From assembly GCF_000223985.1 (NCBI RefSeq), contig NZ_AFWV01000021.1, positions 1 to 64,000 of the forward strand: a stretch of 64,000 bases of DNA, in the 5' to 3' direction. Position 1 is the first letter of the stretch, and each line of letters begins with the position of its first letter. Positions 34,804-40,118 of this stretch are shown here, in pieces. The DNA comes from Thiocapsa marina 5811. Lineage in GTDB: Bacteria; Pseudomonadota; Gammaproteobacteria; Chromatiales; Chromatiaceae. The notes beneath the pieces were generated by a model. It was given only the letters and a program-made list of their open reading frames with translations. It searched no databases and was not told where the DNA came from. Made by a program: the position numbers and the translations under genes.

Positions 34804-36783
34804 CTAAAAACACGGCACACCGTGGTGGGCGTGGTCTAAGACCGGAAAGTTCAGTCGGACCTCCGTGCCCCTCGAGAGATCCGAATGGATGCGCATCTCC
34901 CCGCCGTGCTGCTCGACGAGTCGCCGCACGATGGCGAGGCCCAGCCCGGTCCCGTTGGTCTTGGTGCTGAAGAAGGGCTCGGTCAGACGTGCGAGCAGGT
35001 GCGCCGGGATCGGCTCGCCGCCGTTGTGCACGCGCAGCAAGATGCGCTGCTCCGGCGGCTGCAACTCGATGCTCCAAGTCACCGGCGTGCCCTCGGGTGC
35101 GGCCTGACAGGCGTTGTCGGTGAGGTTGACGAGGATCTGTCGCAGGCGATCCGCGTCCGCGAGGATCCGAACGGCTGCCGGTGTCGAGTCGATGCGGACC
35201 GGGTGTCGTCGGTCGCCGTCGGCATAGCCCGAAACGAAGTCGGCGAGTGTCGAGACCAGATCAACCGGCTGCAGATCCAGGCTCAGCGGCTTGGCGTAGA
35301 GGAGCATGTCTTCGAGCAGGCGCCGCATCCGCTCGGCCTCGCCCGAGGCCAGCGCGATGCGCCGCTGCGCGCGCTCCTCGAGCGGGAGTCCGGCGAGCGA
35401 CTCCAACGCCATGGACACCGTCGTGAGCGGGGTGCGCAGCTCGTGGGCGATGCCCGAGGCGAACTCCCCGATGGCCGCAAGGCGGCTCTGCTCGGCGAAG
35501 CGGGCAGTGCGCCCGAACGCCTGGGTCAGGAGCTGCGCGATGTTGCCCAAGAGGCGCCGCCGAGCGGCATCGAAGCCCTCGGGGCGACGGGTCGCAAACA
35601 CCACCACCGCCGGGACGGGCGTCTGCGTCTGCGCGGTGAGCGGCAGGAAGATCGCGTCCCGCATACCGAGCGCGACCAGGTGAGCGAGAAACTCGTAGGC
35701 CGGATTCTCGCGCACCCGGGCGACGGCATCGGCGACATGGATGGGTGCGGCCTCCGCCAGTGCGGACTCGAGCAGCGTGCCCTGCAAGCGGTAAAGCCGT
35801 CGATCGCTCGGCTGCGGCCCGCCGTCCAGCCAGCCGGTCTCCACGCGCGCGTTGGCGCGGGCATCGTCGATGAAGACGACCCCGATCCAGTCGAATCCGA
35901 GTAGATCCCGAAACTCGCCGCTCAAGAACCCCAGAAGCTCGTCGAGATCGCTGCCCTGCTGCAGGCGGCGAATGAGCTGGTGCAGCAGATCGAGCCGTAC
36001 CGAGAGGCGATTGAAGCTGCCGGTCAGCTCCCGGATCTCGGTGCTGCCCTCGACCGGCGTGCGATGCCCGAAATCGCCGTCGGCGACGCGTTGGAAGCCG
36101 GCGATGGTGCGGCGCAGCGGTGCGAGCACGCGGTAGCGCAGGATCAGCAGTAAGGCGGCCGCGACCAGGACCACCACGACCGCCAGACCGAGCGCGCCTT
36201 GGACGACCTTGCGATACTCGCTCGCGGTCCAGTCGCGCAGGGCCCGTGTCAGCCTTGCGGTGGCATCGCCGAGGACGGCATGCTCGGCGATGGCGTGCTC
36301 GGCCGCCCATTCCAGACGCGGCTCCTCGGTGTCCTCGCCGATCGCCTCGAAGAGTGCGCCACGCCAGGTCTTCCAGGCCTGCTCCAAGTCCCGGATGGCG
36401 AGCGTCACGCCGGTGCCCAGGCGCGGCATCATCCAGGGCAACGGGGTCGGCACCTCGTGGCTGAAGTCGCCCTTCATGAAGGCATCGACGACCTGATCGA
36501 AGGTCGCGACGTGGGTGGTCAGATCCCGGTAGTAGAGTCGGACATCGCGGTAGTAGGTGGGATAGTCGCGCGGGGCGTTTTGCTTGTAATTCATCGCCTG
36601 CGCGTGGATCTGCTCGGCGGCGAGCTCGAGCTGCCCGGCGATCTCGACCAGGGCGTCGTAGGCCAACTGGCGCTGAAAGGCGCCGACGGCATAGAGACCC
36701 GCACCGGCAAAGAGCAGCACCAGAGCGAGGAAGCCGGCGGTGAGCTGAAAGCCGAGGCTGGAGAGGCGCTGAGAAAGGGTCAT
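34804..36783 (-). CDS. Membrane sensor histidine kinase (HAMP-GAF-HisKA-HATPase)
   Basis: A 659-residue kinase. A first transmembrane helix (about 12-35, FQLTAGFLALVLLFAGAGLY) and a second (about 200-222, ALGLAVVVVLVAAALLLILR) bracket a 165-residue helical periplasmic sensor. A HAMP linker (RVLAPLRRTIAGFQRVADGD) and a GAF-like domain (about 290-425, LLGFDWIGVVFIDDARANAR) come next. The phosphorylated His lies in GEFASGIAHELRTPLTTVSM. The ATP-binding domain has the N box LVNLTDNACQAAPEGTP, and FFSTKTNGTGLGLAIVRRLV with EQHGGEMRIHS (G2). No response regulator is adjacent, so it is an orphan. It reports an unknown envelope signal. Confidence 0.92.
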   Translation of the reverse strand: MTLSQRLSSLGFQLTAGFLALVLLFAGAGLYAVGAFQRQLAYDALVEIAGQLELAAEQIHAQAMNYKQNAPRDYPTYYRDVRLYYRDLTTHVATFDQVVDAFMKGDFSHEVPTPLPWMMPRLGTGVTLAIRDLEQAWKTWRGALFEAIGEDTEEPRLEWAAEHAIAEHAVLGDATARLTRALRDWTASEYRKVVQGALGLAVVVVLVAAALLLILRYRVLAPLRRTIAGFQRVADGDFGHRTPVEGSTEIRELTGSFNRLSVRLDLLHQLIRRLQQGSDLDELLGFLSGEFRDLLGFDWIGVVFIDDARANARVETGWLDGGPQPSDRRLYRLQGTLLESALAEAAPIHVADAVARVRENPAYEFLAHLVALGMRDAIFLPLTAQTQTPVPAVVVFATRRPEGFDAARRRLLGNIAQLLTQAFGRTARFAEQSRLAAIGEFASGIAHELRTPLTTVSMALESLAGLPLEERAQRRIALASGEAERMRRLLEDMLLYAKPLSLDLQPVDLVSTLADFVSGYADGDRRHPVRIDSTPAAVRILADADRLRQILVNLTDNACQAAPEGTPVTWSIELQPPEQRILLRVHNGGEPIPAHLLARLTEPFFSTKTNGTGLGLAIVRRLVEQHGGEMRIHSDLSRGTEVRLNFPVLDHAHHGVPCF

Positions 36784-36888: not shown

Positions 36889-37671
36889 TCAGAGCATTGT
36901 CCCGAGCAAAACCCCCCTGGTGCGCAGATCTTCCATCAATCCCGCCCCGAAGGCGATGACCTGATCCGGATCCGGATGGCCGAGCTCCGCTGCGATGCGC
37001 ACGAGCACCTCGCGCCCGGTCGCGTGGCGCGTCTGCTCGTCGAGCAGGATCAACAGGCGCTGTGTCACGGCGTTGATCTCGAGGAAGGCGATGTCGTCGC
37101 CCGGCGTACGATAGACCACCAGATGGGTCGGCTGGTCCGGGGGTGCATCCGGTCGGCAGTCCGGCCCGATGCGATGGACCGGGAAGCGATAGCTGAGATT
37201 CCAGGCCAGCGGCGAGACCACGGGGCACCCCTCGAGCAGGTCGCCGCTCGGATCGATACAGGCTCGATCCGGCTCGGCGTCGCTGATCTGCAAGGCCAGC
37301 TCGACCCATTCGTAGTGCGCCAGCTCCAGAAGAAAGGGCGGATCCCGAGGATTATCCGCGCGCGAGGTTTGCAAAAAGTCTAGAAACTCCTGTCCCAGCT
37401 CGAGGAAAAGCGGCGTCTTTGCGCGATGACGGACGAAGAAGTCCCGGATCAGGTCGTCCCAGTGCGCGTCGGGAAGGATCCGACGAATCACCGGAAAGTT
37501 GCCCGCGAGCAAGGCAGAGGCGTTGTTGAACACCAGGTCGCGATAGATCGCCATGCGGCGATCCTCGACATCCTCGGGTTTCGGGACCCGTGTCGGATCG
37601 CGCAGATGGGCGGCGAAGGCGCGCTGGCGTCGGATGAAATCGGGTTGAACGACATCGGCGTGCTCAGGCAT
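36889..37671 (-). CDS. HvfC/DUF2063 partner of a DUF692 enzyme
   Basis: A 260-residue protein from ATG 37671, overlapping the upstream DUF692 gene by 8 bp. The N-terminal part ([60 protein letters not shown]) is the helical DUF2063 domain. The C-terminal part ([40 protein letters not shown]) is a winged-helix-like, RRE-type domain. In characterised relatives this protein presents a cysteine-containing precursor peptide to the DUF692 multinuclear iron oxidase. No precursor gene is visible in this operon. Confidence 0.85.
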
Positions 37672-38521
37672 CGGCCGCGCTCCGCGCCGATCGCGCCGCA
37701 TGGGCCTGCTGGATCTGTTTGATCCGATCGACCTCGCGAACCAGCTCGTCGATTGGCGGGATGTTGAAGTCGCGCTCCAGGAGCGTCGGGAAGACCCCGA
37801 AGCGCGCATAGGCCAGATCCAGCAGCTCCCACACCGGGTCGATGACGTCCGCGCCGTGGGTGTCGACCCGCAGATCCTCGGCCTCCACGTAGTGACCGGC
37901 GATGTGGCCGTAGCGGATCCGCTCCCCCGGCAGGGCGCCCAGGAAGGCGAGCGGGTCATAGCCGTGGTTGACGGCGTTGACATGGATGTTGTTCACGTCG
38001 AGCAGCAGATCGCAGTCGGCTTCGGTCAGTACGGCGTTGATGAAGTCGATCTCGGACAGCTCTTGCCCCGGCGCGCCGTAGTAGGAAACGTTCTCCAGAG
38101 CGATGCGCCGCTCCAGGATCTCCTGCACCCGACGCACGCGTCCGGCGACATGCCGCACGGCATCTTCCGTGAAGGGGATGGGCAGAAGGTCGTAGAGATG
38201 GCCGTCGTCGGAGCAGTAGCTCAGATGCTCGGTGTAGGCGCGGATGCCGTGCTCATCCAGGAACGCCTTGACCTGCCGCACGAAGTGCAGGTCGAGCGGG
38301 GTCGGGGCGCCGATCGAGAGCGAGAGTCCGTGACAGACGAAGGGATGGCGCTCGGTGAGCGCGCGCAGGCGGCGCGCATTCACGCCGCCCATGCCGATCC
38401 AGTTTTCCGGGGCGATCTCGTAGAAATCGACCTCTGCCGGAGACTGCTCCGCCAGTGCACTCAAAAAGGAGCGCCGCAGGCCGAGACCGGCGCCGTGAAC
38501 GGGGTAGGGTTGTGGAGTCAT
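37664..38521 (-). CDS. DUF692 multinuclear non-heme iron oxidase (MNIO/HvfB)
   Basis: A 285-residue TIM-barrel enzyme from ATG 38521. Family hallmarks: [106 protein letters not shown] (two metal-binding His/Asp clusters) and [11 protein letters not shown]. Enzymes of this family install modifications such as oxazolone/thioamide or thiooxazole on peptide cysteines using two or three iron ions. Coupled to HvfC. An in-frame extension upstream of 38521 is not protein-like and was excluded. Confidence 0.9.
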
Positions 38522-38829
38522 GCCGTCAATGGGCTCCGGATGGGATCGTGATACGGATAGAGACCGCGCGATCGGAGGCGTTCTTTCGGTCGGGATCGAC
38601 TCGACCGCCGCCGCGACGATCTCTGCGAGCACGGTGTCGGCGCCATGTGTTCGGTGCTCCGGCCAGGACGGTCGTGTCGCCGCATCCCGAGTGTGCCTGA
38701 TTCCGGGCACCACCTCCGGTGCCGTTCGGCAGACGGTTTCCAGTCGATCCGACAATAATCGTATCGGGGCCGGCTTGATCAAGACCGCATCGACGGCATC
38801 GGCCGGGCTCATCCCCGCTCCACCAAACG

Positions 38830-38964
38830 TGCGCGCAGCGTTTGGCGCGCGTTCTCGCGCCGCACGATCGTGAAGAGCCAGCCCTTCACGGCCTCGCGGT
38901 TCTGCGGTGTGTTCAGCGAGCGCCAGGCCCGCAGCAGCCCGCTGAATCGGTGGGCTAAGCACAT
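38830..38964 (-). pseudogene. ECF sigma factor relic
   Basis: A minus-strand stretch from about 38964 reads [40 protein letters not shown], the end of region 2 of an ECF-type RNA polymerase sigma factor (compare RAWRxLxxxRDPxAxKGWLxxIxRxxxR). Neither the start of region 2 nor region 4 is found. It lies upstream of, and in the same orientation as, the DUF692 pair, a context in which ECF sigma factors often control such genes. Confidence 0.6.
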
Positions 38965-39088
38965 TCAACGCTTTGGTGGATAGAAATCCTCCGATCTGCC
39001 AACATCGTTTGCATCACGCCATCTCGGCAGTCGAAGGCACCCCGTTGGAGAGCTTCATCCAGACCCACGAGGCGACGATGCGATCGTG

Positions 39089-39202
39089 ATGCTCGACTTC
39101 GTGATCTGGGCTCAGCACTTGTTGTTTCATGCCGTGCCCGCGCTGTGGCGACTGCACCGGGTCCATCATGCCGACCCGACTTACCCGATTCATTCAACCC
39201 TA
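39089..39202 (+). pseudogene. Fatty-acid hydroxylase/sterol desaturase fragment
   Basis: The frame from 39089 encodes MLDFVIWAQHLLFHAVPALW followed by RLHRVHHADPTYPIHSTLRR. QHxLFHxVPxLWRLHRVHH is one of the conserved histidine boxes (HxxHH) of the fatty-acid hydroxylase superfamily. The fragment runs into the hydrolase gene leader, so both ends of the original gene are missing. Confidence 0.65.
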
Positions 39203-39215
39203 CGGAGACCAATGC

Positions 39216-40118
39216 ATGAACCCTCGTCTTTACAGCGCCGGGCTTGCGCTCGCCACGGCATTGGCTGCCGGCACTGCAGCGGCCGAAGAGGTCACCCTGA
39301 CCAACCGAGGCCTCACCCTGAACGCCAACCTGGAGACGACCGGCGCCCAATGGCAACAAGGCCCGGTGGTGCTCATGACCCACGGCACGCTCGCCCATGG
39401 CGGCATGGAGATCATGCAGACCCTGCAATCGGCCTTGCAGGAGCGCGGGATCAGCTCGCTGGCGATGACCCTGAGTCTGGGGCTCGACAACCGCAGCGGC
39501 ATGTATGATTGCGCCGTGCCTCATACCCACCTGCACACCGACGCCGTGGGCGAGATCGGCGCTTGGCTCGACTGGCTGCAGAGCCAAGGGGTCGAAGAGG
39601 TGGCCCTGCTGGGACATTCGCGCGGCGGGAATCAGTCGGCCCGTTTCGCGGCCGAGCATCCGGACGCGCCGCTCGACGCCGTGATCCTGATCGCACCGCA
39701 GACCTGGAGCGAGGCCGCTGCGGCGCAGGACTACGCGAAGCGCTACGGCACGTCGTTGGAGTCCCGGCTCGAGCGGGCGCGCCAGCTCGCTTCGGACGGT
39801 CGCGGCGCGGAGATGCTCGAGCCGATCGACTTCATCTATTGTACGGAGACCGCCGCAACCGCCGCCGCCTTTCTCTCCTACTACGCACCCGATCCCCGCA
39901 TGGACACCCCGAGCCTAATCCCGGAGATCAAGGCCTCGGTGTTGGTGATCGCCGGCAGCGAGGACGATGTCGTCGACGGACTGGTCGAGACGGTTCAGCC
40001 GATAGCGGACGGCGAGCGCGTCAACCTGATCGTGTTGGACGGCGCCGATCATTTCTTCCGTGATCTTTATGCCGAGGAGATTGCCGACGATGTACAGATG
40101 CTGCTCGGCGACAATTAG
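39216..40118 (+). CDS. Exported alpha/beta hydrolase
   Basis: A 300-residue protein from ATG 39216 behind GGAGA. Signal peptide MNPRLYSAGLALATALAAGT, cleaved near AAA/EE. Alpha/beta hydrolase features: VVLMTHGTLAHGGMEIM (oxyanion region), the nucleophile elbow VALLGHSRGGNQSARFAAEH (Ser in GHSRG), an acid in VLVIAGSEDDVVDGLV and the catalytic His in LIVLDGADHFFRDLYAEEI. The substrate is not predictable from sequence; esterase- or peptidase-like activity in the periplasm is likely. It is monocistronic. Confidence 0.85.
   Translation: MNPRLYSAGLALATALAAGTAAAEEVTLTNRGLTLNANLETTGAQWQQGPVVLMTHGTLAHGGMEIMQTLQSALQERGISSLAMTLSLGLDNRSGMYDCAVPHTHLHTDAVGEIGAWLDWLQSQGVEEVALLGHSRGGNQSARFAAEHPDAPLDAVILIAPQTWSEAAAAQDYAKRYGTSLESRLERARQLASDGRGAEMLEPIDFIYCTETAATAAAFLSYYAPDPRMDTPSLIPEIKASVLVIAGSEDDVVDGLVETVQPIADGERVNLIVLDGADHFFRDLYAEEIADDVQMLLGDN

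Follow-up and report, generated by a model that had tools for sequence, protein, structure and literature searches.

As far as the available text of the reports goes, the oxazolin hvf operon of nontypeable Haemophilus influenzae holds HvfA, HvfB, HvfC and HvfX in one operon (PMC13419390), and the cysteines of EGKCG motifs become copper-binding 5-thiooxazoles through HvfB working with HvfC (PMC13419390, PMC13097082). Bufferin operons, in the accessible part of their description, comprise a DUF2282 precursor, an MNIO and a DUF2063 protein, some of them with a sigma-factor gene, and precursor genes lying away from MNIO genes have already been reported there, with the suggestion that they are acted upon from another locus (PMC12452194).

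The locus described here lies in a stretch of 64,000 nucleotides (the window) on contig C42 of the 62-contig draft genome of Thiocapsa marina 5811 (G000). Like H. influenzae hvf, it involves the same HvfB, HvfC and HvfX families by NCBIfam and precursors in which EGKCGEGKCG repeats accompany a signal-like N-terminus; unlike that single operon, as its available text presents it, the present system is split, with the enzymes, both precursors and HvfX on three different contigs (PMC13419390). It likewise shares with fontiphorin and other captophorins (MNIO-PME1 clusters) an MNIO and a DUF2063 partner for EGKCG repeats and a DoxX-type gene, but their genes are clustered, whereas the present system is dispersed and known from genes alone (PMC13097082). 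With the bufferin operon it has the MNIO and DUF2063 architecture in common, and G000 carries such a set on contig C30; however, the window enzyme falls below the BufB cut-off and its candidate precursors carry EGKCG, not DUF2282 (PMC12452194). What goes beyond the unlinked precursors in the accessible text of that source is that one can see here how the split arose, from enzyme relics beside a precursor and reciprocal losses between species (PMC12452194). Among literature titles we found none on duplication and reciprocal loss as the cause of unlinked MNIO precursors, which is not proof of absence. The dispersed Thiocapsa set adds good documentation to a phenomenon already known, of which it is a modest variation.

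The HvfB/HvfC pair and its probable distant precursors

On the reverse strand of the window, an intact HvfB-type MNIO (DUF692) gene, hvfB (37664..38521, 285 aa), is followed by the intact gene of an RRE-type partner protein (DUF2063), hvfC (36889..37671, 260 aa). The hvfB stop codon at 37664-37666 and the hvfC ATG at 37671 make the genes overlap by 8 bp, so that the ORF coordinates bear out this part of the preliminary description. The enzyme matches PF05114 in a profile search (E 3.7e-105) and reaches 441 bits over residues 10-271 with the HvfB model NF003818 (cut-off 360), as against 262 bits with the BufB model NF050167 (cut-off 310). Its partner reaches 314 bits with the HvfC model NF050145 (cut-off 142), also carries PF09836 plus PF22106, and matches 3dee weakly. 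These profile scores assign the pair to the HvfB/HvfC branch, with substrates that carry EGKCG repeats, as opposed to the bufferin branch with DUF2282. The HvfB stretches HGLSLS, EN, DVNNI, HIAGH, DTHG and LERDFN align with 3bww and may include the residues that bind iron in the active site of an MNIO. A genome-wide search returned the window copy as the only hvfB of G000, besides the BufB-type MNIO on C30.

The pair had been described as having no small precursor gene beside it, and indeed no ORF of at least 30 aa with an EGKCG motif occurs in the 64-kb window; scans of it with Rfam and for tRNAs gave no matches, and the final 4.4 kb of C42 were covered by the genome-wide searches alone. A genus-wide DNA pattern for EGKCG located two hvfA genes with EGKCG repeats in G000, both unlinked to the pair: hvfA1 at C45:60544-60858 and hvfA2 at C58:257530-257820, each with six motifs (C45:60697-60815 and C58:257549-257667) and encoding proteins of 104 and 96 aa, respectively, with an N-terminus that appears signal-like by eye. 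These proteins score 66 and 64 bits with NF050137, which models KCGExKCG repeats (cut-off 19.5), and 41 and 53 bits with the strict HvfA equivalog NF050188 (cut-off 95); they are HvfA-family members by the repeat-domain model and not as NF050188 equivalogs. With hvfA on C45 and C58 and hvfBC on C42, the adjacency of the three genes seen in an hvf operon is missing from G000. The earlier suggestion that the precursor was either lost or located elsewhere can be narrowed to its second half: precursors persist elsewhere in G000, the pair has not died, and action of the enzymes in trans is most likely. A side observation concerns G008, in which hvfA2 ends early, after the first EGKCG motif (L075:1437-1649), on a contig of 3.6 kb.

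We propose, with a probability of about 0.83, that a working HvfB/HvfC maturase serves two HvfA precursors in trans, following operon duplication and complementary decay. By analogy with the characterised HvfBC, the iron oxidase and its partner would convert the EGKCG cysteines of HvfA to copper-binding 5-thiooxazoles, and the peptide system of the window is, on the same analogy, probably a copper-binding one.

Two loci across Thiocapsa genomes

A full set of the three genes (full-length hvfB, near full-length hvfC and at least one intact EGKCG gene) was found in eight of 11 Thiocapsa genomes, and the remaining three contain no intact hvfA, hvfB or hvfC. No hvfC match, EGKCG motif or HvfB was found in G002 and G007, the former having one MNIO that is 36% identical, and G005 has a lone EGKCG motif that is not near an hvfA. 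In the same genome, parts of hvfA, hvfB and hvfC were brought together by deletions in a single open frame of 220 aa (L030:6499-7158). Among the eight full-set genomes, hvfB lies beside hvfC in seven and beside hvfA in two, and all three genes are adjacent in one (G010). The comparison of synteny in relatives advised earlier was informative: hvfA is directly upstream of hvfB in G003 (L026:7414-7734) and G010 (L029:8424-8684), which argues that the lone hvfBC pair is the derived state.

The genes occupy two places. At the first, hvfA stands between a LysR gene and a gene for a CoA-binding protein in G000 (C45), G003, G006, G008 and G009; further genes lie in between in G004, and only the LysR side is common in G001. 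In G010 the order is DUF302 - hvfA - hvfB - hvfC, and the genes after it are shared with the region that comes after the first place in G000 and G003. In every one of the six genomes with a second-place hvfB (G000, G001, G004, G006, G008 and G009), the first-place hvfA is followed by a 5' part of hvfB of about 56 to about 286 nt, in two pieces in G008 and G009, beyond which the match jumps downstream or breaks off; the breakpoints differ between genomes, except that G000 and G006 share theirs. Six of the eight full-set genomes thus have hvfA plus a 5' hvfB stub at the LysR side and hvfB-hvfC at a second locus. That second place reads sigma - receiver - DUF302 - hvfB - hvfC - kinase in G004, with its elements matched in G008 and, apart from most of DUF302, in G009; the regulatory genes are present as tiles in G000 (the window) and G001, and G006 keeps one short tile before hvfB. 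The opposite split is seen in G003, in which hvfA-hvfB stayed at the first place and the second place lacks hvfB, with hvfC beside a receiver/DUF302 tile. Because the stubs follow first-place hvfA in six of six cases, mostly with different breakpoints, there must have been two hvfB copies, either present together or one taking the place of the other.

In the history that we favor, an ancestral operon of the order sigma - receiver - DUF302 - hvfA - hvfB - hvfC would have been duplicated within the genus. At the first place, flanked by the LysR and CoA-binding-protein genes, deletions would have taken hvfB and hvfC and spared hvfA. At the second, hvfA would have gone and serial deletions would have worn sigma, receiver and DUF302 to short tiles, while hvfB-hvfC would have remained under purifying selection, so that the window pair would now act in trans on HvfA1 and HvfA2 encoded elsewhere in G000. 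Since no hvfA relic was seen in second-place loci with surviving sigma, receiver and DUF302 genes (e.g. G004), we infer the loss of hvfA from the second copy from the G010 gene order only.

The LysR tree groups G006 with G004, even though G006 has its hvfB breakpoint in common with G000; at least one first-place deletion must therefore have been shared, repeated or exchanged. Neither the hvfB tree nor the hvfC tree has an inner branch with support, which leaves the order of duplication and loss unsettled and makes gene exchange possible. Both this lack of resolution and the breakpoint common to G000 and G006 would suit a history with no duplication within the genus, in which hvfBC moved as a block or was returned by transfer after hvfB had been lost from the first place, the action in trans being unchanged. 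We nevertheless consider such a history unlikely, for G003 and G009 are sisters in the LysR tree (99/97), and their opposite losses, together with the tile beside the lone hvfC of G003, require both copies in the ancestor unless transfer was repeated.

Wider samples place this arrangement in context. In a family-level sample of 146 genomes, 51 had an HvfB over the cut-off; hvfA lay within 458 bp in 37 of these, only elsewhere in five (G000, G001, G004, G009 and G112, four of them Thiocapsa), and was not found in nine. A second sample held 80 named loci, five of them too short upstream and left out; 58 of the 75 others showed two or more xG[KR]CG motifs sharing a frame at most 1.5 kb upstream, and the 17 that did not include three Thiocapsa loci (L076-L078).

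Selection on the pair, and a separate bufferin set

Compared with full-length orthologues, the window genes are 83-95% (hvfB) and 75-89% (hvfC) identical, with dN/dS of 0.10-0.20 and 0.19-0.29, respectively. Over 28 pairs the median dN/dS is 0.115 for hvfB, 0.221 for hvfC and 0.185 for hvfA1, and it is on account of these low values that all three genes look kept by selection. If the pair were instead an orphan without substrate, a decaying remnant of a lost pathway, the decay of the neighbouring sigma, receiver and DUF302 genes would fit; but both genes of the pair have kept their full length, at dN/dS values close to 0.1 (hvfB) and 0.2 (hvfC), and two precursors persist in G000, by which such a reading is already largely refuted and can be considered very improbable.

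A search of the whole genome for DUF2282 gave matches on C30 only, to one gene. This gene is part of a separate bufferin-type set (L004:6354-9699) composed of the DUF2282 precursor, a BufB-type MNIO, a DoxX/HvfX-like gene and a divergent sigma-like gene, and its MNIO scores 379 bits with NF050167 (cut-off 310). DUF2282 was rejected as the partner of the window pair, given that its only copy adjoins BufB on C30, and the expectation that the pair would modify a DUF2282-type precursor has to be given up, the enzyme scoring as HvfB and below the BufB cut-off. The presence of one DUF2282 gene in G000 could also be taken to mean that the window pair is a spare maturase for the bufferin of C30. However, an MNIO that passes the BufB cut-off (379 vs 310) already accompanies that gene, whereas the enzyme of the window, at 262, stays below this cut-off and exceeds that of HvfB, and we give this idea marginally less credence still than the orphan reading.

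The eroded upstream region and its regulatory genes

Upstream of hvfB, the preliminary description had noted a truncated ECF sigma factor. A relic it is (38812..38938, reverse strand), consisting of a region-2 tile (38844-38938) joined to C-terminal codons (38812-38850), with the middle and the 5' part deleted. The 51-aa ORF at 38809-38964(-) matches sigma-70 region 2 (PF04542, E 4.4e-4) and NF009170 (E 1.7e-10), below cut-off in both cases, and it ends in codons that correspond to the C-terminus of a relative's intact sigma gene; the gene is therefore 5'-cut and internally deleted and not merely truncated, and it forms part of a collapsed row of tiles. The row, bordered by an intact alpha/beta hydrolase gene (39213..40118, forward strand), further comprises two tiles of a fatty-acid-hydroxylase gene (38922..39176, forward strand; middle 39080-39176, 5' end 38922-39082) with DNA matches to L025 and L028 and a PF04116 match below cut-off (E 2.6e-4); a lone receiver-domain relic (38644..38812, reverse strand), in which the first codons (38790-38812) are separated by a deletion from a C-terminus (38644-38797) that runs into the 5' end of the DUF302 gene; and the 3' end of that DUF302 gene (38548..38639, reverse strand), matched to L023:6385-6476. 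The tiles in 38548-39176 are collinear, in the order hydroxylase middle, hydroxylase 5' end, sigma region 2, sigma 3' end with receiver start, receiver end with DUF302 start, DUF302 end and hvfB, and about seven deletions would be needed to produce them. DUF302 proteins beside the operons (L023:5960-6424, L029:8911-9363) have a signal-like N-terminus, and the NCBIfam CrcB model matches them below cut-off over the DUF302 part.

The tiles measure about 50-160 bp and are 73-91% identical to relatives; similar tiles of the same genes, with other breakpoints, are seen in other Thiocapsa genomes. The perfect overlaps at the deletion junctions range from 0 to 8 bp, and with the register of J7 set by hand and relatives standing in for the true parents, their sum over seven junctions (25 bp vs a random mean of 10.5) was reached in one of 2000 draws, or, by a looser identity measure, in 77 of 2000. 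That the mosaic is an assembly artefact is scarcely credible, as no supporting sign was seen beyond the draft state of G000, the tiles are collinear with relatives, and similar, differing patterns occur in G001 and G003, which are assembled into 1 and 2 contigs.

The other copy of the sigma gene that was to be looked for does exist: a complete gene lies at C58:252666-253187, is 94% identical to the G004 copy and adjoins a receiver gene, a DUF302 gene lacking its 3' end, and HvfX. The longest sigma tile of the window is 92.6% identical to this copy and 89-91% identical to those of three relatives, values too close for the copy to be dated.

Downstream of hvfC, on the same strand, lies a lone histidine kinase gene (HAMP-GAF-HisKA-HATPase; 34804..36783, reverse strand), which occurs in four of the 11 Thiocapsa genomes and adjoins hvfC in all four. 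A lone sigma-54-type response regulator (Sigma54_activat) is encoded at C58:256027-257397, beside hvfA2 in G000, G004 and G009, and lies about 15 kb from hvfBC on one contig in G008. Kinase and regulator, on different contigs in G000, are present in exactly the same four genomes, to which the complete sigma gene is likewise limited. Allowing up to one mismatch, no sigma-54 promoter of hvfA2 or hvfB occurs in the seven stretches scanned, and none of 11 hvfA genes scanned has a sigma-54 site upstream; linking kinase and regulator to hvfA is for this reason a guess from position and co-occurrence. It is conceivable, though on balance doubtful, that one HvfB/HvfC pair serves two precursors under separate control, HvfA1 being encoded at the old LysR site and HvfA2 next to the regulator, whose kinase would be the one encoded beside hvfC. 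The dispersed pathway for the copper peptides may in that case be switched by a two-component system with its halves encoded apart.

An MNIO maturase that lacks an apparent precursor is easily set aside as a puzzle; here the cause can be read: duplication would have been followed by complementary decay, with one full set kept in each of eight species. The genus lends itself to testing, in a natural setting, whether several unlinked precursors are modified by one HvfBC pair, and it carries a warning that neighbourhood-based mining misses dispersed sets of precursors and enzymes.
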